Shown piece by piece: positions 52,831 through 64,000 of a DNA stretch of 64,000 nt. The notes under the pieces were generated by a model. It was not told the DNA's origin. It made no database searches and saw nothing but the letters and a program-made list of their open reading frames with translations. The stretch is taken from contig NZ_CANLZV010000011.1 in assembly GCF_947495665.1 (NCBI RefSeq), positions 1 to 64,000 on the forward strand, given 5' to 3'. The position numbers and the translations under genes are program-made. The stretch comes from an uncultured Sunxiuqinia sp. Lineage in GTDB: Bacteria; Bacteroidota; Bacteroidia; Bacteroidales; Prolixibacteraceae. The stretch's first letter is position 1. Every line of letters starts with the position of its first letter.

Positions 52831-53949
52831 ATGGGATGTAGTGGATGTAGTATGAATACTCAAGGTGAGCGCCCCGAAATGCTAGGCACCTACAATTGGC
52901 TGAACGATTTACCAGATACAACACATTTATCAAATATTGTTGAAGTGCGCTTCAAAGGAACCCGCAAAGAGTTCTTTAAAAACGAAGATGCGCTTTCATT
53001 AAAAGTAGGTGACTTAGTAGTCGTAGCCACCAATCCGGGACACGATGTCGGAACCGTTTCGCTGACAGGAACTCTTGCCGACAAACAGTTTAAACGAAAA
53101 ATAAGAAAACCGGAACGTTACCAGTGGAATAAAATTTACCGCAAAGCCACCACCACTGATAAGGAAAAGGCTGAAGCGGCCCGTAACCGTGAATATGCCG
53201 TTATGGTGCGTTCGCGCCAGCTAGCTAATGAGTTGGAGCTGGACATGAAAATCGGAGATGTTGAATTCCGTGGAGACAATGCCAAGGCGATTTTTTATTA
53301 CATTGCTGAAGGTCGAGTCGATTTTCGGGAACTCATTCGCCGTTATGCGCGCGAATTTCGGGTCAAGGTTGAAATGAAGCAAATAGGTGCACGGCAGGAA
53401 GCCGGACGTATAGGCGGCATTGGCTCTTGCGGTCGCGAGCTTTGTTGCTCAACCTGGCGAACCGATTTTGACAGCGTTACCTCCGATGCAGCCCATCAGC
53501 AAGGCTTGTCGCCCAACGCTGAGAAAATGGCCGGCAAATGTGGGAAGCTGAAGTGCTGCCTGATGTACGAGCTGGATACCTACCTGGAAGCGCAGGATGA
53601 TTTCCCCAATGAACTGCTGGCATTGGAAACATCAAAAGGATTGGCCCGTCATTTTAAAACAGAGATTCTGAATAAGAAAATCTGGTATACGCTGGAAGAA
53701 GCCTACGGCAACAAACCCTTGGTTTTGGACTTGGATGATGTCAAGAAAATCATTCAGCTTAACAAACGTGGCCGAAAACCACCCATTGAGCAATACCTTA
53801 GCCCGGAAACCAAGTTAGAAAATGAAATGAGTGTAGGCTCTGTGAATACCGATTTACTGGAGAAACCCAAAAAGAAGAAAAATCGCAAGCGAAAGTTTTC
53901 AAAACGGCCCAACACAAACCGACAGAAAAAAGTAGATACCAATTCATAA
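52831..53949 (+). CDS. ricT: RicT-like PSP1 domain protein
   Basis: 372 residues. The N-terminus MGCSGCSMNTQG and the later Cys sets (IGSCGRELCCSTWRTDF, then GKCGKLKCCLMYELD) are those of the PSP1-domain RicT/YaaT family, whose Bacillus member forms an iron-sulfur-containing complex with RicA and RicF that affects RNA processing. The PSP1 core spans about 100-250. The lysine-rich tail after 340 (KPKKKKNRKRKFSKRPN) could bind RNA. RicA and RicF are not nearby; in Bacteroidota the protein usually stands without them. Confidence 0.9.
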   Translation: MGCSGCSMNTQGERPEMLGTYNWLNDLPDTTHLSNIVEVRFKGTRKEFFKNEDALSLKVGDLVVVATNPGHDVGTVSLTGTLADKQFKRKIRKPERYQWNKIYRKATTTDKEKAEAARNREYAVMVRSRQLANELELDMKIGDVEFRGDNAKAIFYYIAEGRVDFRELIRRYAREFRVKVEMKQIGARQEAGRIGGIGSCGRELCCSTWRTDFDSVTSDAAHQQGLSPNAEKMAGKCGKLKCCLMYELDTYLEAQDDFPNELLALETSKGLARHFKTEILNKKIWYTLEEAYGNKPLVLDLDDVKKIIQLNKRGRKPPIEQYLSPETKLENEMSVGSVNTDLLEKPKKKKNRKRKFSKRPNTNRQKKVDTNS

Positions 53950-53953
53950 ACAC

Positions 53954-53990
53954 AAAGCCTTGAGGTTAAAACACCTTGAGGCTTTTTAGT
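53954..53990 (+). terminator. Terminator of the RicT gene, overlapping the end of the mevalonate operon
   Basis: AAAGCCT-tg-AGG and CCT-tg-AGGCTTT form a stem with a symmetrical internal loop, followed by TTAGTTTT. The stop codon of the minus-strand mevalonate kinase gene (53966-53968) is in the loop, so transcripts from both strands converge here. Confidence 0.75.
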
Positions 53991-54877
53991 TTTGCAGGTA
54001 AAGTCACGCCATCGGGAACAAAAGCAAGCAGGTAGCCACCGCCTCCCGAGCCCAATAATTTCAAGGGGATATCCCGGCTTGTCAATTCCTGAAAAACCGA
54101 CTTAAACGCTTCCGGAATCATTGGCTGAAGATTCTCACGTTGAAAAGCCGAAATTGATTTCAACGCTTGAAAAAGCCTGGTAGTATCGCCATTCAAAAAA
54201 GCATGAATAGCCTGCGAATTCGACGGTAGAAAAAGCTCATCAAACTTGGCCTTGAACTCCTGTGCTTCCATTTTTTTCACAAACCAGTTTACCAGAGGTG
54301 CAGTTGGGCTTTTCACCTGGGTGTCCAGCAGCACCACCGAGTACCCCGGCGTTTGAATTTCAGGTGAAGGCAGGCGAATCTCGTCACCCACCAATAAAAC
54401 CGGCCGGTTAACATACGATACCAAGGGATCAAAACCCGAACTTTTACCATGAAAAAAAGACTCCATCACTGAAAAATCGTGCTTTAGGCTGCTCAACAAC
54501 CAGGGCTTTTCTTTGAGCTCTTTCAAATCCAACTGATTACTTCCATAGTGTTGATAGAGTGCCGCACACAGTGCTCCGGAGCTGCCTACGCCGTACTGCA
54601 AAGGAATGTCAGAATCAAAGTGAAGCCCTCGCTTTAAATCCCGGCGAATTTGATCGAGTCCGATGGGAAAGTTCATTTGTTCGTTTAATCCTTCTTGCTC
54701 AAAGAACGTGACAAAATGCTCCAAATCCCGCTGACTCTGCTTTACCTCGGCCACTTTCTTTTGACTCGCAAAGGCAAGCTCTCCGGTAAAATGGGGAAAC
54801 GAAACAGCCAGCGCTTCAGCTCCAAACATCAACCCATATTCCCCAAACAACAATAATTTGGCATTAAACTTCTTCAT
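53966..54877 (-). CDS. Mevalonate kinase-like GHMP kinase
   Basis: 303 residues, last gene of the nine-gene operon. Motifs: FNAKLLLFGEYGLMFG at the N-terminus, the ATP-binding PLQYGVGSSGALCAALY, and a C-terminal LKLLGSGGGGYLLAFV. These are the three GHMP motifs with mevalonate-kinase character. It should phosphorylate mevalonate at the 5 position with ATP. It overlaps the decarboxylase gene by 14 bp. Of the two GHMP kinases here, this one best resembles mevalonate kinase, but the assignments of the two could be exchanged. Confidence 0.82.
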   Translation of the reverse strand: MKKFNAKLLLFGEYGLMFGAEALAVSFPHFTGELAFASQKKVAEVKQSQRDLEHFVTFFEQEGLNEQMNFPIGLDQIRRDLKRGLHFDSDIPLQYGVGSSGALCAALYQHYGSNQLDLKELKEKPWLLSSLKHDFSVMESFFHGKSSGFDPLVSYVNRPVLLVGDEIRLPSPEIQTPGYSVVLLDTQVKSPTAPLVNWFVKKMEAQEFKAKFDELFLPSNSQAIHAFLNGDTTRLFQALKSISAFQRENLQPMIPEAFKSVFQELTSRDIPLKLLGSGGGGYLLAFVPDGVTLPAKLKSLKVF

Positions 54878-55916
54878 CTGCTAATTTCATAGGGCCGCCG
54901 CCGATATTATCATCCAGCCATTGACCATTCTCTATTAAAGCCAACAACTCTGACTTGATAAACGCATGCACCTGCTGCTTGTCTTTTTCAAAATAAATCA
55001 AATGAATATTTGGCCCCGCATCAATTGTAAAACCAAGAGCCAAACCGCTTTTTTGGCGGTATTCCCGTATTTTATGAATGAGCAACAGGCTGTTGGGCTG
55101 CAATAGAATAAAAGAAGGGTCGGAAGTCATCATCATAGCGTGCAGACTCAGTGCTTCCTTTTCAACCAACTCAAAAAAACGCTCATGGTTGCCCACTTTC
55201 ATCACCTGCACCAACTCGGCTAAGTGACTATTGGCCTGTGCAATGCGCACGTCCTTAAACTCATGCTGATTCATCAACTGATGTCCAGCCGAACTTGAAA
55301 CTTTCTTCTGCGCAGAATCAACCAGCAAAACCGCATCCCGCAAGGACTGATAGTCCGGGTGAAATTTCTCGGTCACCGGAATGGCATTGCAGTCGGTTGA
55401 ATTCAGAAAGCCGTTCATCCGTCCCCACAAGGCAAAAGAGGGAAACACGGATCGGCAGGCACTGCCACTTCCCAAGCGTGCCCAGCGTGATGCCTTTTGA
55501 AAAAATTGCTGTTCGGTAAACTGCTTGTTTGTCACCTGTTCTTTCAAATCGACCAAACAAAGCGCCAGCGCTCCAAAAGCCGATGCCGAAGAGGCAATTC
55601 CGGCAGAATGCGGAAACGTATTACTGCTTTCTATGTAGAAGGAGTAGTCGTTCAGCCAATCATGCTCCAGCGACATGCTGGCCAGGTATTTTTCAATGCG
55701 GTCAGCAAAAACCGATCGTTGGCCTTCAAACAAAAACTCAACCTTTCGCCGCGAAGAAGGCTCGATGCGCACCCATGTTTGGGTCCGGGCTTTCTTCAGG
55801 CTGAAACTCAAGGACGGATTCATCGGTAACTGTCCCTCTTTTTTGCCCCAGTACTTTACCAATGCTATATTTGACGGACATTCCCATGCTGCCCGGTAAA
55901 TTTCTTTTTTCACCAT
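54864..55916 (-). CDS. mvaD: Diphosphomevalonate decarboxylase
   Basis: 350 residues. The N-terminal block AWECPSNIALVKYWGKKEGQ and the NPSLSFSLKKARTQTWVRIE strand are diagnostic. The ATP motif is FPHSAGIASSASAFGALA, and GSGSACRSVFPSFALWG follows. The catalytic Asp is expected in GFTIDAGPNIHL. It converts diphosphomevalonate to isopentenyl diphosphate with loss of carbon dioxide. It is 6 bp after the GYDIA kinase gene and overlaps the mevalonate kinase gene. Confidence 0.95.
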   Translation of the reverse strand: MVKKEIYRAAWECPSNIALVKYWGKKEGQLPMNPSLSFSLKKARTQTWVRIEPSSRRKVEFLFEGQRSVFADRIEKYLASMSLEHDWLNDYSFYIESSNTFPHSAGIASSASAFGALALCLVDLKEQVTNKQFTEQQFFQKASRWARLGSGSACRSVFPSFALWGRMNGFLNSTDCNAIPVTEKFHPDYQSLRDAVLLVDSAQKKVSSSAGHQLMNQHEFKDVRIAQANSHLAELVQVMKVGNHERFFELVEKEALSLHAMMMTSDPSFILLQPNSLLLIHKIREYRQKSGLALGFTIDAGPNIHLIYFEKDKQQVHAFIKSELLALIENGQWLDDNIGGGPMKLADEEV

Positions 55917-55922
55917 AATAAA

Positions 55923-56846
55923 TCAACGATTATTCAAAACCAATTCATTCCAAGGGAAGACCACACTTAGGCCTTTTTCTTTGAAGTATTGCAACACACA
56001 ACGGTCGTCCATTGGGGTAGCCACCAGGTAAAAATCACCACCCCATGCTCCCAGCGATTTTATATCACCCTGAAAATCGCTAAAATAACTTGACTTAACC
56101 GTTGGAATCTTCAGCACACCGGAAACCAACTGTTCATGAAGTCGGATCAATTCCTGAAACTCCTTCAGGCTTTGTACACTGGCAATTTGTTCTGAAAGGA
56201 GATTAACTTCTTCAAGTTGTTTTTGAGAAATACTCCCCTCACTCAGAAACCGCCACACCTCATTTCGTGTACTTTTCTTCGATCCGGAATAAACAAAATA
56301 GAGCTTATCTAAAAACGGATAATCCAAAGTAACCGGCTCAGGCTTTTCATTCTTCACATAAAAGATCGGGCCTGCAGCCGAAGCACAAGCAATATCAAAA
56401 CCCGAACCGTTAAATATCTTTTCGTTGAGCTGGTAAGGATCAACACCGGCCCAGGAAGCCAGGTTGGCAATCAAGGTGCTGCTGCTGCCCAAGCCCCATT
56501 GGTCGTGAAAATCAATTTTAGTCTGAATATCCAATCCACCATTCAGCTGAAACCGGGGATTCATTTCCAAAATCGCTTTTAACGCATCCTTTAAAATTAC
56601 CGCTTTCCCCGCATCCGAACTATGAATGATTTTCAGGTCGGGCAAGCTAAAATCGCAGGAAAACCACAAGCCCTCCTGCATAAAGGCTTTCCAGCTTACC
56701 ACTCCTTGCTTTTTGCCCTCGGTTACCTCCATGTGCTGCCCGTACTTTAAAGGCAAGGCAATGGCTTTTGCTCCCTGCAACACAAAGTATTCGGCCGTTA
56801 GCAGCAGTTTCCCGTGAGCATGATATGTTTTTTGACTATTTGGCAT
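55923..56846 (-). CDS. GYDIA-type GHMP kinase, candidate phosphomevalonate kinase
   Basis: 307 residues. It opens AHGKLLLTAEYFVLQGAKAIALPLK, has the ATP-binding DQWGLGSSSTLIANLASWAG, and the segment GSGFDIACASAAGPIFYVKN corresponds to the GYDIA motif after which this Bacteroidota family is named. A phosphomevalonate kinase is the only step otherwise missing between mevalonate and IPP in this operon, so it is the natural candidate. It overlaps the HMG-CoA reductase gene by 11 bp. Biochemical proof for this family is not known to me. Confidence 0.82.
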   Translation of the reverse strand: MPNSQKTYHAHGKLLLTAEYFVLQGAKAIALPLKYGQHMEVTEGKKQGVVSWKAFMQEGLWFSCDFSLPDLKIIHSSDAGKAVILKDALKAILEMNPRFQLNGGLDIQTKIDFHDQWGLGSSSTLIANLASWAGVDPYQLNEKIFNGSGFDIACASAAGPIFYVKNEKPEPVTLDYPFLDKLYFVYSGSKKSTRNEVWRFLSEGSISQKQLEEVNLLSEQIASVQSLKEFQELIRLHEQLVSGVLKIPTVKSSYFSDFQGDIKSLGAWGGDFYLVATPMDDRCVLQYFKEKGLSVVFPWNELVLNNR

Positions 56847-58152
56847 GTTCTTTTAAATAATTCTGCACTTCGGAAAATGAAACTTCCCGGTGTTGAAAGT
56901 AAAGCATCGCAGCCTGCTTTTGTTCATCCGAAACCTGCAAACTATTCAAAATATTACTCAAGTGCATTTTCATATGCCCTTTCTGAATGCCGGTAGTTAC
57001 CAAGGCACGCACGGCCGACCAGTTGGACGCCAGCCCGGCAACAGCCAGATAGCCCATCAATTGACGCGCAGAGGGCTGCCCAATAATTTGCATGGCCAGC
57101 TTTGCCAAAGGATGCAAGCTGGTTACACCACCTACGACGCCAACAGCAAGCGGCATCTCCAGGCTAAACCAAAAATTCCCATTGGTTATTCCGGCATTGC
57201 TCAGCCCCCGGTATTGTCCGGAACTGGCGGCAAAAGCATGACCTCCAGCCTCAATGGCACGAAAATCATTCCCGGTTGCGATGGCTAAGGCATCAATCCC
57301 GTTAAATATTCCTTTGTTGTGAGTTACGGCACGCGAAACATCATGCCGCGAAATGTGAACGGCCTGCACAAATTTCATCGCCAAAGCGTGCGCCTGATCG
57401 GCATCGCTGTCCAAGTCCTCAACCGGACATTCAACCCAAACTTTAACCCGGTTGTTGGGCACATAGTTTGACAAAATGGCCATGATCACCTCCACTTCCT
57501 TTTCGTCATCCCGGAAATCACCATTGGCCTTGGCCCAGTTTTTCAGTGTTTTGCCCATTTGCTCCAAACACGAATTGATGAAATTGGCTCCCATGGCATT
57601 ACAGGTTTCAAAAGCAACATCCAGCTGGTAGTAATTGGGCCTAACTTCAGGCAAGTGCTTCAACCGGATGTTTGTTATTCCGCCACCCCGCTTTTCCATG
57701 TTTTGCGTCAGTGGAGCCACATCCCGTTCCAGCTCCTCTTTCAATTCCGAAAAGGATTCGCTTAGCTTTTCAGGCTTCCCGTTCCAACTAAAATGCACCT
57801 GCCCCTTTTTTTCCGTTCCAATAATTTCGGTATGGAAACCATCCCGCTTGGCCCAGTAGCCGGCCGCTTTTGCCAAGGCAGCCACAACCGAGCTTTCCTC
57901 GGTAACCAACGGAAAAGTCAATACCTTGCCGTCAACCCTGAAATTGGGAGCTACTGAAAAAGGCAAATGAAAGTTGGATAACTGATTTTCACTCAAATCG
58001 GCAATCAGCTGTTGAATGGCTTGCTCAGAAAGCTGGAAACGATTAAGCTGCTCAAGCGTTTCCTTGTCCAGTTTCAATTGTTCAATCAGCCATTCAATTT
58101 TCTGTAAACGATCCAGTTTCGAAAATCCACTTATGATTTTAGGTTCCGTCAT
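56836..58152 (-). CDS. mvaA: Hydroxymethylglutaryl-CoA reductase, class II type
   Basis: 438 residues, soluble, no membrane anchor. It shows the class II arrangement: LPFSVAPNFRVDGKVLTFPLVTEESSVVAAL, then MGANFINSCLEQMGK, AHISRHDVSRAVTHNKGIFNGIDALAIATGNDFRAIEAGGHA (read in two pieces) and the catalytic His/Asp/Lys region. It reduces HMG-CoA to mevalonate with two equivalents of NAD(P)H. It sits exactly where the catabolic genes hand over to the isoprenoid genes and overlaps the IPP isomerase gene by 14 bp. Confidence 0.95.
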   Translation of the reverse strand: MTEPKIISGFSKLDRLQKIEWLIEQLKLDKETLEQLNRFQLSEQAIQQLIADLSENQLSNFHLPFSVAPNFRVDGKVLTFPLVTEESSVVAALAKAAGYWAKRDGFHTEIIGTEKKGQVHFSWNGKPEKLSESFSELKEELERDVAPLTQNMEKRGGGITNIRLKHLPEVRPNYYQLDVAFETCNAMGANFINSCLEQMGKTLKNWAKANGDFRDDEKEVEVIMAILSNYVPNNRVKVWVECPVEDLDSDADQAHALAMKFVQAVHISRHDVSRAVTHNKGIFNGIDALAIATGNDFRAIEAGGHAFAASSGQYRGLSNAGITNGNFWFSLEMPLAVGVVGGVTSLHPLAKLAMQIIGQPSARQLMGYLAVAGLASNWSAVRALVTTGIQKGHMKMHLSNILNSLQVSDEQKQAAMLYFQHREVSFSEVQNYLKEHAK

Positions 58153-59152
58153 ATTCCGGATTTAACTTCAAGTATTGCTGAGCCAAACGAAAGGCCTTGA
58201 GCTGGTTTTTCAGGTACGTTTGAAGCTCCCTATAATCACCGGTAGCATGTTTCAGCACAGCAGAAGCCATCCCGTATACGGCAGGCAACTGACTCAATGA
58301 AGTCAGATGATAGCCATCCAGGTAGCTCTTCACCCCACCCGAAATGATTAGCTGCCGGCAACGGGGCTCACCCATTTGCTGCAACAAACGATTAACCGTT
58401 TTCACCATCTGATAAGCAGTTTGCCCCACAAAGGCAAAAGGCTGGTACATTTCCTGAGTCGCAGGATCTTCCCGCATCAACTCGAGGTTCGAAAAATTAG
58501 TACCGCCATAGGCTGCAAACTCAATGGCCGCCAAGGGCAGTTCCAACAAACGCTTCAAACTATCTTCGCCCATCCCCTGCCCCACTTCTTTCACAATTAA
58601 GGGGATATGAATCCGCTCCATCAAATGGGTAATGGTTTCCAATGGCGGACGCTCAATATGGTCACCTTCAGGCTGAAACCATTCCTGCAACGGATTGACA
58701 TGAACAATCAATCCATCGGCACGAAGCCCGCCAACCAAGTCAATAATGGCTTTTTCGTTTTTCTCTTGTAGTAATTTTTCAATTTGAGCAATTCCCAAGT
58801 TAGCCCACAAAGGCTGATCCGGGCCAATGGTATCACGCATGTCAAAATCGGCCCAATGGGTTTTGTCAAACAATATTTTCCGACACGATCCCAACCCCAT
58901 TCCAAATCCAAACTCACGGCAAGCCTGCGCAATATTTTTATTGATTTTTTCAGCCACACCGGTCCCTCCGGTCATGCTTGAAACCCAGAATGGCGCCCGA
59001 ATCATTTTCCCCAGAAACAGGAACGAGTTCTCCTCATCGTTAGGATGAGCAGCCAGCATGGGTTCATAAATAAAGCGTTGATCCTGCTCGGCAAAACCGG
59101 TTTGCGAATCAAACGCGAGTTGAATGTGGTCTAGTTTACGATCTTTAGTCAT
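58139..59152 (-). CDS. fni: Type 2 isopentenyl-diphosphate delta-isomerase
   Basis: 337 residues of the FMN-dependent isomerase. Visible are APFWVSSMTGGTGVAEKINKNIAQ, FGFGMGLGSCRKIL, the loop with NPLQEWFQPEGD, VKEVGQGMGEDSLKRL, AAYGGTNFSNLE and the phosphate-binding ISGGVKSYLDGYHL. It converts IPP to DMAPP. Placed 1 bp after the acyl-CoA dehydrogenase stop, at the junction between catabolic and anabolic genes. Confidence 0.94.
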   Translation of the reverse strand: MTKDRKLDHIQLAFDSQTGFAEQDQRFIYEPMLAAHPNDEENSFLFLGKMIRAPFWVSSMTGGTGVAEKINKNIAQACREFGFGMGLGSCRKILFDKTHWADFDMRDTIGPDQPLWANLGIAQIEKLLQEKNEKAIIDLVGGLRADGLIVHVNPLQEWFQPEGDHIERPPLETITHLMERIHIPLIVKEVGQGMGEDSLKRLLELPLAAIEFAAYGGTNFSNLELMREDPATQEMYQPFAFVGQTAYQMVKTVNRLLQQMGEPRCRQLIISGGVKSYLDGYHLTSLSQLPAVYGMASAVLKHATGDYRELQTYLKNQLKAFRLAQQYLKLNPEYDGT

Positions 59153-59153
59153 G

Positions 59154-60311
59154 TTATTCCTTTAAAACCGAACGCGAGATAACCATCCGTAAAACTTCAG
59201 ATGTACCTTCTCCAATGGAAAGCAATCGCTGATCGCGGAAAAAACGCTCGATTGGGTATTCATCATTTCGAAACAAGCCGGCACCTCCAAAAATTTGCAA
59301 GGCATCACTGGCGACATCGCTGGCAACCTCTGAACAGTACAATTTAGCCATGGCCGCCTGCGTACCAAAAGGCTGTCCATTATCTTTTAACCAGCAGGCA
59401 TTGTATAAAGTGTTCCGGGCATTTTCAATTTTCATGGCCATGTCGGCCAATTTAAAAGAAATTACCTGAAAATTTGCCAAGGCCTGACCAAATTGTTTCC
59501 GTTTTTTTGCAAAACTCACCGCCATTTCAAAAGCTCCCTGGGCCAGTCCAAGTCCCATCGCCGCTATCGAAAGCCGGCCCGAGTCAATTGTTTTCAGCAT
59601 AATTTTAATCCCCTCTCCGCGCTCACCCAACTGATCTTCAGCAGGGATAAAACAATCCTTCAGGTAAACCATGCCATTATCTGCAGCGCGCCACAATAGC
59701 TTATTTTTCATGAATTCGCGGGTATAGCCGGCCGTTCCTTGCGAGACCATAAAAGCTGTAAATTCTTTCCGCCCATCGGGGCGCAAGCCGGTTTGGGCCA
59801 CAAAGCTGATCCCTGCCGACATGTCGGAAGCACCATTGGTAATGTACTTTTTGTGTCCGTTTACCAACCATCCGCCATCTTGTTTTTCGGCAATGGTTTC
59901 AACCCCTTGGGCATCTGATCCAGCATTTTCTTCGGTCAACCCAAAGGCCCACAGATTTTCAGCCGTACACAAAGCAGGCAGGTATTTGGCTTTCTGTTCT
60001 TCGGTACCAAATTCCATAATCGGCCCCACGCCTAATGAATTGTGTGCAGCTAAAGTAGCTGCCACCGAACTATCCACGCGGGCTAATTCCTCAACAGCAA
60101 TTATGTAAGACAAATAATCACTGTTTTGTCCCCCATATTCTTTCGGGGCATGCATTCCAAAAATCTTCAGACTCTTCAGAGAACGAATCAGCTCCATTGG
60201 AAACTGTTCGTTGGCTTCAAACTCACCAATCACAGGCTTCACGTATTTTTCTGCAAAGTCTCTGACTTTGGCCCTGATTGCATGATGAGTTTCATTTAAA
60301 AATGCGCTCAT
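59154..60311 (-). CDS. Acyl-CoA dehydrogenase (isovaleryl-CoA dehydrogenase candidate by context)
   Basis: 385 residues, standard family length. FAD/substrate motifs are WAFGLTEENAGSDAQGVET, VNGHKKYITNGA, RKQFGQALANFQ and LQIFGGAGLFRNDEYPIERFFRD. Near the C-terminus SIGEGTSEVLRMV has Glu at the catalytic-base position of short-chain acyl-CoA dehydrogenases; true isovaleryl-CoA dehydrogenases have Ala there and use a Glu in an inner helix, where this protein reads IDSGRLSI. So the substrate call rests on operon context. It lies between the carboxylase genes and the IPP isomerase. Confidence 0.85.
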   Translation of the reverse strand: MSAFLNETHHAIRAKVRDFAEKYVKPVIGEFEANEQFPMELIRSLKSLKIFGMHAPKEYGGQNSDYLSYIIAVEELARVDSSVAATLAAHNSLGVGPIMEFGTEEQKAKYLPALCTAENLWAFGLTEENAGSDAQGVETIAEKQDGGWLVNGHKKYITNGASDMSAGISFVAQTGLRPDGRKEFTAFMVSQGTAGYTREFMKNKLLWRAADNGMVYLKDCFIPAEDQLGERGEGIKIMLKTIDSGRLSIAAMGLGLAQGAFEMAVSFAKKRKQFGQALANFQVISFKLADMAMKIENARNTLYNACWLKDNGQPFGTQAAMAKLYCSEVASDVASDALQIFGGAGLFRNDEYPIERFFRDQRLLSIGEGTSEVLRMVISRSVLKE

Positions 60312-60329
60312 ATCTATGTTTTAATTTCT

Positions 60330-62303
60330 TTACGACTCCAGATCTACCAATAATTCTTTGTCCTGAACCAAATGTCCCTTGGTTACATGGATATGTTTCA
60401 CCACGGCATCGGCCGGGCTTTGTATTGTAAATTCCGACTTCATGGATTCGATGATCAACAAATTCTGTCCTTTCCGAAGCACATCTCCCGGCTTCACCAA
60501 AACATCGATCACCTTTCCAAATAAACCAGCTACGACTTGATTTGTCTTTACCTGTGTGGTTTTTCCAGCATCCTTATTTAAGCGAACGTGGTTCAAAACC
60601 TGATTACTCCACAATCTAAGCTGTCTGCCCTCCCACTGAAGGCAAGTTTGCTCTTTTTCTTCGGAAATAAAGATAACAATATCTTTTTCATTTAACTGAA
60701 ATTCAAGCTTTGCTCCGGTAAATTGGCCAATTTTTAATGCATAGCTTGCCCCTTTCCAGTCCACCAAAATCATATCACCCTTTGGGTGAACCTGAACTTC
60801 ATGCCACTCTCCTTCCAATGCGATGTTAAAAACAGAATGCATTCGCCAGTATCCCTGCGCATTCCAAGGATTGGATGCATGCGATGAGCGATAAAAGTGA
60901 TGCAACAGGTAGCCTGCCAATACCTCAAGAGCCGATTCTCCCAACTGCTTGTTCTGAATGCGCTGAATGCTTTCCGGCAAGCGCTCCTCAGCCCAGCGGG
61001 TACAAATTTTATTCTGCCTGAAGTCATCCTGACTCAAGAGCTCCAACAAAAATTCCTGGTTGGTTTTTATCCGTTCGATGAATAGATTCTTCACAGCTTG
61101 CTGCATATCCGATAAGGCCTGCTCACGCGTTTCGGCTCCTACGATCAATTTGCCAATAAGGGAGTCGTAGCTGGACGACAAAGGCATTCCGGAATGAAGA
61201 AAACTATCCCAACGGCATAACTCAGGCACAACCAGTTCACCAACAGTCCCGGAAGCAGGCCTGAAGTCACAAAGCGGATCTTCCGCACAAATTCGTAACT
61301 CAATCGCATGCCCTTGGGCTGTCAGGCTTTGCTGAGATAAGCTGAGCTCTTGCCCTGAAGCAATTTTTAATTGCCAATCCACCAGGTCAACTCCAGTGAT
61401 GTACTCGGTTACCGGATGCTCCACTTGCAGGCGGGTATTCATTTCCAGAAAATAAAAATTCTCCTGCTCATCCACCAAAAACTCAATGGTTCCCGCTCCT
61501 CTGTATTTTGTAGCCCGCGCAATACGAAGCGCCGACTGGTACAATTTCTCTTTGGTTGTTTGCGAAAGTGCTTGTGCTGGTGCCTCTTCGATCAGTTTTT
61601 GATACCGACGCTGAACGCTGCATTCACGTTCAAAAAGATGCACGGCATGTCCCTGACCGTCGCCAAGGATCTGCACTTCAATATGACGGGCCTTGGGAAG
61701 AAACTTCTCCACAAACAATTCATCATTCCCAAAATACTGCAAGGCCTGGCGTTGAGCTTGCTCTAATGCCAAAGGCAACTGCTCCGGCTGGTAAACAATC
61801 TCCATGCCTTTTCCGCCGCCGCCACCCGAGGCTTTTACCAGCAACGGAAATTCCAACTCCTTGCTGTGAGTTAGAATATCGTCTACAGCACCAGCCATTC
61901 CCGGAATAACCGGAATCTCCAGTTCTTTCACAAAAGCAATGGCCTGCGTTTTCTCGCCCATCAATCCAATTTGCTCAGCCGTGGCTCCAATAAAAACCAG
62001 CCCTGCCTGCTCAACCTTCGCTGCAAATTCAGCGTTTTCTGACAGGAAACCATAGCCCGGATGGATGGCCTGAGCTCCGGCATTTTGGGCCGCTTCAATT
62101 ATTTTTTCCTGATTCAGGTAAGTCTCCCCCAGCTGCACTCCTTCCAGCAAAACAGCTTCGTCTGCCAAACTAACATGTAATGAAGCCGCATCATCCGCGG
62201 CATAAACTGCAACAGTCCGGATTCCCAAGTTCTTTGCCGTTTGAATAATCCGCACAGCTATTTCGCCTCGGTTCGCAACTAATATTTTTTGAAAGAGCTT
62301 CAT
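60330..62303 (-). CDS. liuD: Methylcrotonyl-CoA carboxylase alpha subunit (biotin carboxylase plus biotin carrier)
   Basis: 657 residues. The biotin carboxylase part spans about 1-445: VANRGEIAVRI, HPGYGFLSENAEFA, the ATP-grasp loop KASGGGGGKGM, MNTRLQVEHPVTE. A middle adaptor is followed by a biotin carrier domain (about 580-657) with the biotinyl Lys in IIESMKSEFTIQ; Ser replaces the usual Met after Lys and Ser replaces Ala before Met. It carboxylates 3-methylcrotonyl-CoA with the beta subunit encoded upstream. It shares one base with the hydratase stop. Confidence 0.9.
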   Translation of the reverse strand: MKLFQKILVANRGEIAVRIIQTAKNLGIRTVAVYAADDAASLHVSLADEAVLLEGVQLGETYLNQEKIIEAAQNAGAQAIHPGYGFLSENAEFAAKVEQAGLVFIGATAEQIGLMGEKTQAIAFVKELEIPVIPGMAGAVDDILTHSKELEFPLLVKASGGGGGKGMEIVYQPEQLPLALEQAQRQALQYFGNDELFVEKFLPKARHIEVQILGDGQGHAVHLFERECSVQRRYQKLIEEAPAQALSQTTKEKLYQSALRIARATKYRGAGTIEFLVDEQENFYFLEMNTRLQVEHPVTEYITGVDLVDWQLKIASGQELSLSQQSLTAQGHAIELRICAEDPLCDFRPASGTVGELVVPELCRWDSFLHSGMPLSSSYDSLIGKLIVGAETREQALSDMQQAVKNLFIERIKTNQEFLLELLSQDDFRQNKICTRWAEERLPESIQRIQNKQLGESALEVLAGYLLHHFYRSSHASNPWNAQGYWRMHSVFNIALEGEWHEVQVHPKGDMILVDWKGASYALKIGQFTGAKLEFQLNEKDIVIFISEEKEQTCLQWEGRQLRLWSNQVLNHVRLNKDAGKTTQVKTNQVVAGLFGKVIDVLVKPGDVLRKGQNLLIIESMKSEFTIQSPADAVVKHIHVTKGHLVQDKELLVDLES

Positions 62304-63109
62304 TAATTTTCAACCACGTTTAGTTTCTTCCAGTCCGGTTTTCGTTTCTCCAGAAAAGCCCTTAGTCCTTCCTGCCCCTCGTCCGAGTGAATCAGCTCTG
62401 CGAGTACCGCCGCTGTATATTCACTGTTTTCAATAGTTAACTCGCCAGAACCTTCTTTCAGCAACAACTGCTTGCAGGCGCGCAAAGCATTTGGCGATGA
62501 AGTCTTCAATCCGTCAATCAATTCTCTCACAACCTGCTCCAGCTGACCATCTTCGGCCAGGAAGTCAACCAGTCCAACCCCATGCGCATGAGGTGCTCCA
62601 AACCGATCGCCGGAATACATGAGCTTTTTCAAATTCTGGGTTGACATCCGCTTCGATAAGAACGGTGTAATGATAGCCGGAACAATCCCCAGTTTAATCT
62701 CTCCAAAGGCAAAAGCTGTAGAATGCTCAGCCACTGCAAAGTCGCAGGCAGCAACAATACCATTGGCACCGCCCAGCACATGCCGGTGAACTGCCGTAAT
62801 GGTAATCTTCGGGAACTGATAAATCACCTTCATCAGTTCAGCCATCCGCAGGTACTCCTGCCAGTTGTCGGACTTGGCCTTGTTGACCGCCTCGGCAAAC
62901 CAATTGATATCAGCTCCGGCGCAAAAAGATTTTCCGGCTCCGGAAATCACCAAAAATTGCACCTTGTCATCTGCAGCTACTTTGGCCAGCGCTTCATGCA
63001 TTTCCTCAATCATTCTCGGATTCAATGCATTGTGAACCTTCTTCCTGTTTAATAGCAAGTTTGCGCGGCGGCCTGTTATTTCTAGTTGTATATTTTTCCA
63101 ATTCTTCAT
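62303..63109 (-). CDS. liuC: Methylglutaconyl-CoA hydratase candidate (enoyl-CoA hydratase family)
   Basis: 268 residues of the crotonase fold. The oxyanion-hole segments are SGAGKSFCAGADINWFAEA and VHRHVLGGANGIVAACDFAVAEHSTAFAFGEIKLGIVP (read in pieces). The SGAGKSFCAGADINW pattern fits LiuC/AUH-type hydratases. It would hydrate 3-methylglutaconyl-CoA to HMG-CoA. Located between the beta and alpha carboxylase genes, 12 bp after beta, as in known leucine/isovalerate clusters. Function inferred from neighbours. Confidence 0.88.
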   Translation of the reverse strand: MKNWKNIQLEITGRRANLLLNRKKVHNALNPRMIEEMHEALAKVAADDKVQFLVISGAGKSFCAGADINWFAEAVNKAKSDNWQEYLRMAELMKVIYQFPKITITAVHRHVLGGANGIVAACDFAVAEHSTAFAFGEIKLGIVPAIITPFLSKRMSTQNLKKLMYSGDRFGAPHAHGVGLVDFLAEDGQLEQVVRELIDGLKTSSPNALRACKQLLLKEGSGELTIENSEYTAAVLAELIHSDEGQEGLRAFLEKRKPDWKKLNVVEN

Positions 63110-63121
63110 AACCTTCTCTTT

Positions 63122-64000
63122 TTACATTCTGAAAACACCATAACGGGCTTCCTGAACTGGTTGATTAAGCGTTACCGTAAAAGCCAAAGCCAAAATATCT
63201 CGGGTTTCCACCGGATCAATAATGCCATCATCCCACAAACGGGAAGAACTATAATAAGCTGTACTTTCTTCTTCAAACTGAGTAACCAAATTCGCATTGC
63301 GTCCATTCTGTCCAATGGTTTGCAAAACCCCAGAAGCCTGCTCCCCGCCCATCACGGCAATACGTGCATGAGGCCACATAAACAAAAAGTCAGGTTCGTA
63401 AGCCCGACCGGCCATCGCATAATTCCCCGCCCCAAAGGATCCGCCAATTACCAGGGTAATTTTCGGTACAACCGAATTGGCCACGGCATGGATCAACTTG
63501 GCGCCATCACGCGCAATTCCCTCATGCTCGTACTTTTTACCAACCACAAAACCGGTGATATTTTGCAGAAACAACATGGGAATCTGACGTTGATTGCATA
63601 ACTGGATGAAGTGAGCTCCTTTTCGGGCACTCTCTGCCGTCAGAAAACTCCGATTTCCGATAATTCCAATCGGAATTCCCTTCAACCGGGCAAAACCGGT
63701 AACCAAAGTCTTTCCGTAATTCTCCTTAAACTCCTGAAAATCGCTGGAATCAACCAAACGGTCAATAATTGCCCGCACATCGATGGGCTTTTTCAAGTCG
63801 GTTGAGAGGTATGAATAAAGCTCTTCAGCTTCGTGATTGGGCTTTTCAGCCGGACAAAGCTGAACTGCGCGTTTCTGAACGTTTGGAAAAGTCTCCACAA
63901 TTTTTCGGCAAATTTCAATGGCTTCCACATCATCTTTAGCCAAGTGGTCGGCCACTCCGGATACTGACGTATGCACTTCGCCACCTCCCAATTCTTCGGC
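63122..64000 (-). CDS. liuB: Methylcrotonyl-CoA carboxylase beta subunit, C-terminal part (cut by window edge)
   Basis: About 293 codons are present and the frame is open to the right edge (AEELGGGEVHTS at the last bases). It is a carboxyltransferase with the pattern typical of the methylcrotonyl type: GGEVHTSVSGVADHLA, FFLQNITGFVVGKKYE-like LFLQNITGFVVG, GSFGAGNYAMAGRAYEPDFLFMWP then ARIAVMGGEQASGVL, and LWDDGIIDPVETR, ending ARYGVFRM. It transfers carboxyl from biotin to 3-methylcrotonyl-CoA. First visible gene of the operon; the promoter must be outside. Confidence 0.93.
   Translation of the reverse strand, partial: AEELGGGEVHTSVSGVADHLAKDDVEAIEICRKIVETFPNVQKRAVQLCPAEKPNHEAEELYSYLSTDLKKPIDVRAIIDRLVDSSDFQEFKENYGKTLVTGFARLKGIPIGIIGNRSFLTAESARKGAHFIQLCNQRQIPMLFLQNITGFVVGKKYEHEGIARDGAKLIHAVANSVVPKITLVIGGSFGAGNYAMAGRAYEPDFLFMWPHARIAVMGGEQASGVLQTIGQNGRNANLVTQFEEESTAYYSSSRLWDDGIIDPVETRDILALAFTVTLNQPVQEARYGVFRM

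Follow-up and report, generated by a model that had tools for sequence, protein, structure and literature searches.

The leucine shunt, in which leucine is converted to 3-hydroxy-3-methylglutaryl-CoA (HMG-CoA) and the HMG-CoA is used uncleaved for mevalonate synthesis, is known in Leishmania and in Halobacterium (Halobacterium salinarum) (PMC8791446) and also in Trypanosoma (T. brucei) (PMC5993337); statements on cited papers refer, throughout, to the available parts of their texts. Here we describe a nine-gene operon on a 64,000-nt stretch of DNA from an uncultured Sunxiuqinia sp. of the Prolixibacteraceae (contig NZ_CANLZV010000011.1, positions 1 to 64,000, hereafter the window), in which leucine-degradation genes, including both subunits of methylcrotonyl-CoA carboxylase (MCC), are followed by genes of the mevalonate pathway. 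We propose, with a probability of roughly 0.7 and from sequence comparisons, that the operon encodes a route from leucine to isoprenoids in which mevalonate genes replace HMG-CoA lyase and HMG-CoA synthase (HMGS) is absent or unrecognisable.

The proposed route would resemble the shunt of Leishmania, Trypanosoma and Halobacterium in that leucine yields HMG-CoA that goes to mevalonate uncleaved (PMC8791446, PMC5993337). In T. brucei HMGS occurs along with a putative lyase gene (PMC5993337), whereas neither was detected in the window genome, which gathers the genes in one operon and has 1-deoxy-D-xylulose 5-phosphate reductoisomerase (DXR). Myxobacteria are likewise known to join the leucine pathway to the mevalonate pathway, and in one myxobacterium sesquiterpene nucleosides were labelled by deuterated dimethylacrylate and not by 13C-acetate (PMC7321100). 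Unlike the window, no such operon is described in the available part of that paper, and the myxobacterial alternative route heads to isovaleryl-CoA. A sequence-only reading of the window had named the route as one described in Leishmania and, in related form, in myxobacteria, and the literature bears this out (PMC8791446, PMC7321100). Relatives of the window genome carry a Liu-type leucine cluster with the same MCC beta–hydratase–MCC alpha–dehydrogenase block, but with a lyase and acetoacetate-handling genes where the window has genes for isopentenyl diphosphate (IPP) isomerase, HMG-CoA reductase (HMGR), a kinase, a decarboxylase and a second kinase.

Mycobacterium marinum also combines the methylerythritol phosphate (MEP) and mevalonate pathways in one genome, with the mevalonate genes in an operon; there the MEP pathway is essential and the mevalonate pathway dispensable (PMC12632256). 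It differs in that an hmgS gene is implied (PMC13001223) and in that leucine is not mentioned in the available text (PMC12632256). Most Legionella species have mevalonate genes without HmgS, which is left unexplained; in contrast to the window, PmvK is missing as well and the available text proposes no leucine link (PMC13001223). The available parts of these two treatments of dual-pathway bacteria (PMC12632256, PMC13001223), and of a study of HMGR cofactors (PMC13370337), make no mention of leucine. To the knowledge of the authors of PMC8791446, the leucine shunt has not yet been built in E. coli. No report of an operon of this type was found in the open-access literature, a scope outside which most subscription papers fall, and this is weak evidence of novelty. 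The chemistry is already known; on that weak evidence, its encoding as one bacterial operon is apparently new.

Results

Nine tightly spaced genes on the minus strand

The nine open reading frames (ORFs) span 53966-64702, with the last 702 bp beyond the window end. The sequence-only reading had described nine closely packed minus-strand genes, and all of the ORFs were found at gaps of 12, -1, 18, 1, -14, -11, 6 and -14 bp from MCC beta downstream. From this spacing, the nine genes are predicted to form a single transcript. The features are as follows, in the order in which the genes would be transcribed.

63122..64000 in the window, full gene to contig position 64702, minus strand: MCC beta (MCCB), by PDB similarity
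62303..63109, minus strand: crotonase-fold hydratase, candidate 3-methylglutaconyl-CoA hydratase, by NCBIfam, Pfam and position in MCC clusters
60330..62303, minus strand: MCC alpha (MCCA), biotin carboxylase plus biotinyl domain, by Pfam and the biotin-site motif ESMKS
59154..60311, minus strand: acyl-CoA dehydrogenase, candidate isovaleryl-CoA dehydrogenase by context and short-chain type by similarity and Glu, from Pfam, PDB similarity and the same family in MCC clusters
58139..59152, minus strand: type 2 IPP isomerase (IDI2), by NCBIfam, with the dehydrogenase gene 1 bp away
56836..58152, minus strand: class II HMGR, by NCBIfam, Pfam, similarity and alignment
55923..56846, minus strand: GYDIA-family GHMP kinase, phosphomevalonate or mevalonate kinase candidate, by NCBIfam and predicted structure
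54864..55916, minus strand: diphosphomevalonate decarboxylase (MVD), by NCBIfam and Pfam
53966..54877, minus strand: mevalonate-kinase-like GHMP kinase (MVK), by NCBIfam
53954..53985, no strand assigned: hairpin, possible terminator, between the operon end and the convergent neighbour

At full length MCCB has 526 aa (contig 63122-64702) with a TTG start, and an ATG five codons in is equally likely.

Enzymes of the leucine half

The best PDB chains for MCC beta were human MCC (652.5 bits) and the Pseudomonas-type MCC 3u9r (630.5 bits). Similar scores were obtained for a carboxyl transferase domain protein (642 bits), propionyl-CoA carboxylase 9tps (639 bits) and AccD1 (633 bits), and the remaining propionyl-CoA carboxylase chains reached at most 281 bits. 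Both the alpha and the beta subunit of MCC that Liu-type leucine degradation requires are present, as judged by Pfam and PDB similarity. The dehydrogenase is a candidate isovaleryl-CoA dehydrogenase by its context, a role supported by the presence of its relatives in 13 of the 20 fetched MCC loci.

The hydratase is a crotonase by Pfam, and its top NCBIfam model was PRK05674, gamma-carboxygeranoyl-CoA hydratase (209.9 bits, under the cut-off of 426). This match, together with AtuA-family genes that three relatives carry in their MCC clusters, would fit a carboxylase that acts on a longer prenyl-type acyl-CoA, with the operon coupling terpenoid breakdown to isoprenoid synthesis. We consider this very unlikely, given that MCC beta scored 630-652 bits to MCC chains compared to 427 bits to geranyl-CoA carboxylase and that, from general pathway knowledge, a geranyl-type product would yield no HMG-CoA for HMGR. 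The AtuA-family genes lie between MCC alpha and the dehydrogenase (L151:13877-15679, L152 and L158:6870-8687; Pfam on L151 and L158), and all three genomes are lyase-less. It is possible that an AtuA-family gene provides a substitute step in lyase-less MCC clusters.

Enzymes of the mevalonate half

The operon holds a mevalonate-pathway set of HMGR, MVD, IDI2 and two GHMP kinases, in which the assignment of kinase to step is ambiguous. MVD (178.9 vs 171.35 bits) and the GYDIA kinase (318.9 vs 225) scored above their NCBIfam cut-offs, whereas HMGR (255.6 vs 259.95), IDI2 (192.9 vs 281.3) and MVK (62.6 vs 163) scored below theirs. With Pfam, HMGR and MVD were above threshold, MVK was just below (21.1 vs 22.3), and IDI2 and the GYDIA kinase gave no match. 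HMGR belongs to class II by similarity, and its Glu, Lys, Asp and His, which we take to have the usual active-site roles, were invariant in 10 aligned sequences. The predicted model of the GYDIA kinase showed a GHMP kinase fold with a mean predicted local distance difference test score of 93.7; mevalonate kinases matched it first and phosphomevalonate kinases lower. Genes for the part of a leucine shunt that leads from isovaleryl-CoA via HMG-CoA to IPP are present in one organism, with the dehydrogenase and kinase assignments as candidates.

HMGS, lyase and DXR in the window genome

A genome-wide search for HMGS, as proposed in the sequence-only reading, was carried out on the window genome (4.73 Mb, 70 contigs, 99.95% complete). 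None was detected with PF01154, with a flavobacterial HMGS protein as query or with TIGR01835, searches that a very divergent enzyme would escape; the PF01154 control search was positive in 7 of 14 named genomes. The top TIGR01835 match of the window genome, at 41.5 bits, is FabH (411 bits). Since no HMGS was detected, the cell has no recognisable source of HMG-CoA other than the leucine half. The cluster contains no lyase gene, as had been claimed, and this extends to the whole genome, in which NF004283 detected no lyase-like gene: the best of three matches (5e-13) was partial and lay in a 523-aa frame.

DXR, the sole gene of the MEP pathway that was searched for, was found. Mevalonate as the only route to IPP in the window genome was discarded because DXR is present, and the operon is therefore most likely a second, substrate-dependent IPP supply, probably an accessory route beside the MEP pathway. 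The other sampled member of the window's family, G072, has DXR; searches of it for HMGR, for MCC beta at 1e-113 and for a strong lyase match were all negative.

Shared intermediates would on paper also permit the module to run backwards, from mevalonate or HMG-CoA to isovaleryl-CoA for branched fatty acids, like the myxobacterial alternative route, and in Ancylomarina strain M2P iso-C15:0 predominates among the fatty acids (PMC11129491). Reversal nevertheless seems improbable in the extreme: no HMGS was detected, the kinases and the decarboxylase of the same operon would pull mevalonate to IPP, and the operon has a carboxylase where, from general pathway knowledge, the myxobacterial route has a decarboxylase.

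The gene order recurs in other Bacteroidales families

To follow up the suggestion that conservation of the gene order be checked, searches for HMGS, HMGR, lyase, DXR and MCC beta were run on 119 genomes of the order (the order sample), two from the window's family and one from each other family. HMGR was found in 36 genomes, and HMGR loci were fetched from 30 besides the window genome; among the five unfetched genomes, G010, G016 and G035 had an HMGR unmatched to that of the window and G075 and G117 a fragment only. The full nine-gene order was present in 6 of the 30 loci (L039, L041, L047, L050, L055 and L062) and split over two contigs in G014 (L061 and L100), and G043 is possibly another such split. 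L055 was counted as full order with a GYDIA frame that was uncalled by the ORF caller, yet open. Upstream linkage was unreadable at contig ends in L034, L035, L036, L048 and L063, and the remaining unlinked loci had the HMGR-GYDIA-MVD-MVK block, were cut at contig ends or were partial (L051, L052). The nine-gene arrangement is not confined to the window genome, and chance adjacency of the nine genes was ruled out by its recurrence across family-level lineages.

A scan of named genomes gave 80 HMGR loci among the matches listed. Among these, an uncultured Prolixibacteraceae metagenome-assembled genome (MAG) kept the order over eight of the nine genes, on a contig that ends near the hydratase (L192), an uncultured Bacteroidia MAG had a similar order cut in MCCA (L212), and Ancylomarina euxinus and Ancylomarina sp. 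had dehydrogenase-IDI2-HMGR-GYDIA-MVD-MVK with MCC not alongside. The other 76 among the matches listed gave no MCC match in the vicinity of HMGR at the cut-off applied, and several were cut by contig ends, including L194, whose HMGR was the most similar to that of the window (63%) among the matches listed.

HMGR tracked MCC, which was found in 35 of 36 genomes with HMGR compared to 19 of 83 without (Fisher 3e-15, families treated as independent). DXR was present in 112 of the 119 genomes, including all eight in which MCC and HMGR are linked. The seven DXR-less genomes comprised three with HMGR and MCC (G046, G084, G101) and four without HMGR (G070, G095, G104, G111), and assembly gaps may account for part of these absences. 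By PF01154, HMGS was detected in none of the 36 genomes with HMGR and in two of 119 overall (G012 and G047), both without HMGR. When TIGR01835 was applied to 72 genomes, 13 had a known-type HMGS at 105.9 bits or above and all other matches were at most 53.5 bits; none of the 36 genomes with HMGR in the order sample exceeded 52.2 bits.

G012 (L002; 525.7 bits to PRK04262) and G047 (L284; TIGR01835) have an archaeal-type HMGS; neither has an HMGR by PF00368 or a strong lyase-like match. Six unlinked loci had a GroEL-family gene with recurring neighbours on the upstream side of HMGR (L049, where its identity was established, and L044, L046, L052, L054 and L056, by clustering). An HMGR unmatched to that of the window (tblastn 1e-6) was present in L004-L010 (G016, G084, G035, G056, G032, G038 and G010), in four cases beside a window-type HMGR.

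Linked genomes lack a lyase-like gene

An MCC beta match at E <=1e-113 defined 54 MCC-bearing genomes, four of these at 45-47% identity and two as fragments, and an NF004283 match at E <1e-40 defined a lyase-like gene. A lyase-like gene was found in none of the eight linked genomes, compared to 34 of the 46 other MCC-bearing genomes (Fisher 1.2e-4, again with families as independent). HMGR was present in 17 of 20 MCC-bearing lyase-negative genomes and in 18 of 34 lyase-positive ones (p 0.02). G017 (70% complete) had a lyase-like gene and no MCC at E 1e-113. All nine of the lyase-bearing MCC loci that were fetched had the lyase and MCCB on one stretch, and several also had an acetoacetate-CoA ligase or a 3-oxoacid CoA-transferase (each enzyme name was tested on a single example). 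In window-type loci, IDI2, HMGR and the rest came directly after the dehydrogenase. Two lyase-like paralogues of ~336 and 286 aa stood close together in several lyase-bearing genomes (G103:C44, G110:C10, G100:C62).

The history of the linkage was examined on trees. A single clade of linked HMGRs was rejected (approximately unbiased test, p 0.004 with 10 rows and 0.012 with L034 added), and the linkage was therefore lost or gained more than once. One supported HMGR clade of five genomes contained two linked genomes without lyase and three unlinked ones with lyase. In two independent pairs on the HMGR tree, from which L034, L036, L048 and L049 were left out for unclear linkage or no MCC, the lyase differed as expected or not at all. 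The linked MCCBs clustered weakly on a tree covering 39 of the 54 MCC-bearing genomes, where seven of eight grouped with G043 and the window row was long-branched and outside.

Observations that weigh against a leucine route

Several results count against the proposed route. DXR is present in the window genome, so the operon is not needed for IPP. The dehydrogenase was nearer to short-chain enzymes (<=318 bits) than to isovaleryl-CoA dehydrogenases (<=246 bits), and it carries a catalytic Glu of what we take to be the short-chain type. MCC was not beside HMGR in most of the fetched order loci, and G040 had HMGR but neither MCC nor HMGS. None of the 119 genomes reached the curated cut-off of NF004283, hence the term lyase-like, and nine unlinked genomes with HMGR and MCC had no lyase, an absence that linkage does not explain. 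The two independent pairs left by the HMGR tree, on which families are not independent as the Fisher tests assume, cannot reach significance. A shared lifestyle, that of amino-acid-using aerobes, could be behind part of the co-occurrence.

The main caveat came from a phylum sample of 148 genomes, in which DXR was missing from 18, all in families f121-f123 and all 18 with HMGR. We call these flavobacteria-like, from two f122 loci that were 86-87% identical to a Flavobacterium record and, presumptively, for f121 and f123. HMGS was recognisable in 7 of the 18 and went undetected with two profiles and the flavobacterial HMGS protein query in 11 (G147, G155, G171, G175, G182, G206, G221, G225, G236, G248 and G252), each rated 100% complete. 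The chance that Pfam had missed HMGS was addressed by retesting with the flavobacterial protein (148 genomes) and TIGR01835 (72 genomes), and HMGS again went undetected in the window genome and in these 11; an ORF of G182 with 22% identity to archaeal-type HMGS was rejected, as it is FabH. An MCC-beta-like gene, 41-43% identical by blastp, was present in 10 of the 11, and G206 had no MCCB at 1e-100. One flavobacteria-like MCCB that was tested was MCC-like by PDB similarity. No leucine cluster surrounded these genes in 14 fetched loci, and they therefore add no evidence of linkage.

Because a recognisable HMGS is often missing in the phylum, its absence is weakened as proof of leucine feeding. 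Either leucine feeds mevalonate in the flavobacteria-like genomes too, or Bacteroidota use an unrecognised source of HMG-CoA, possibly also in the window genome. An HMGS too divergent to recognise could thus feed the mevalonate half from acetyl-CoA, with the leucine genes adjacent for regulatory or historical reasons. The 11 flavobacteria-like genomes speak for it, as leucine or something unrecognised must supply their HMG-CoA, and so do G206, which has no MCCB at 1e-100, and G040, which has neither MCC nor HMGS. However, feeding from acetyl-CoA leaves unexplained why the lyase is also missing in the eight linked genomes, and TIGR01835 separated the 13 genomes with bacterial/archaeal-type HMGS from all other matches. 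We regard a divergent HMGS as unlikely. A broader possibility is that, throughout the HMGS-less Bacteroidota, mevalonate normally or exclusively comes from leucine and not from acetyl-CoA, by a route that is accessory to the MEP pathway in most Bacteroidales and the sole one to essential isoprenoids in DXR-less, HMGS-less genomes (the 11 flavobacteria-like ones and G046, G084 and G101, all three of these with MCC); this extension is doubtful.

Flanking genes

The nearest gene 5′ of MCCB is on the same strand, 227 bp away, and presumably an MtaB/MiaB-type radical SAM gene. The convergent gene 3′ of the operon (52831-53949) resembles what we take to be PSP1, and in Ancylomarina (L195, L196) its relatives at 51% identity are found at a distance of 4-5 kb from the dehydrogenase-mevalonate block. 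The hairpin at 53954-53985 has 13 pairs and a T-rich tail; terminator-like matches overall numbered 19 compared to a shuffled mean of 14.8 (sd 4.5), which is near chance.

Discussion

In the proposed leucine-to-isoprenoid route, the dehydrogenase, both MCC subunits and the hydratase would convert isovaleryl-CoA, from leucine or isovalerate, to HMG-CoA. The downstream half would take this HMG-CoA uncleaved, reduce it to mevalonate and carry it on to IPP and dimethylallyl diphosphate. Leucine-derived HMG-CoA would in this way feed the mevalonate pathway, and leucine carbon would gain an outlet. That leucine or isovalerate carbon is routed to mevalonate was the central claim of the sequence-only reading, and it finds support in the failure to detect HMGS and lyase and in a gene order that is kept in other families. 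What the sequences show is the content, order and conservation of the genes, the failure to detect HMGS or lyase and the presence of DXR; the substrates of the enzymes, their co-transcription and the direction and amount of flux are what we infer.

If the route operates as proposed, leucine's branched skeleton would be kept whole into isoprenoids by one bacterial operon, without HMGS and without lyase. It would also offer an explanation for mevalonate genes without HMGS, a situation that the available part of a 2026 survey leaves unexplained in Legionella (PMC13001223), and the operon would supply terpenoid production from leucine or isovalerate with a compact set of genes.

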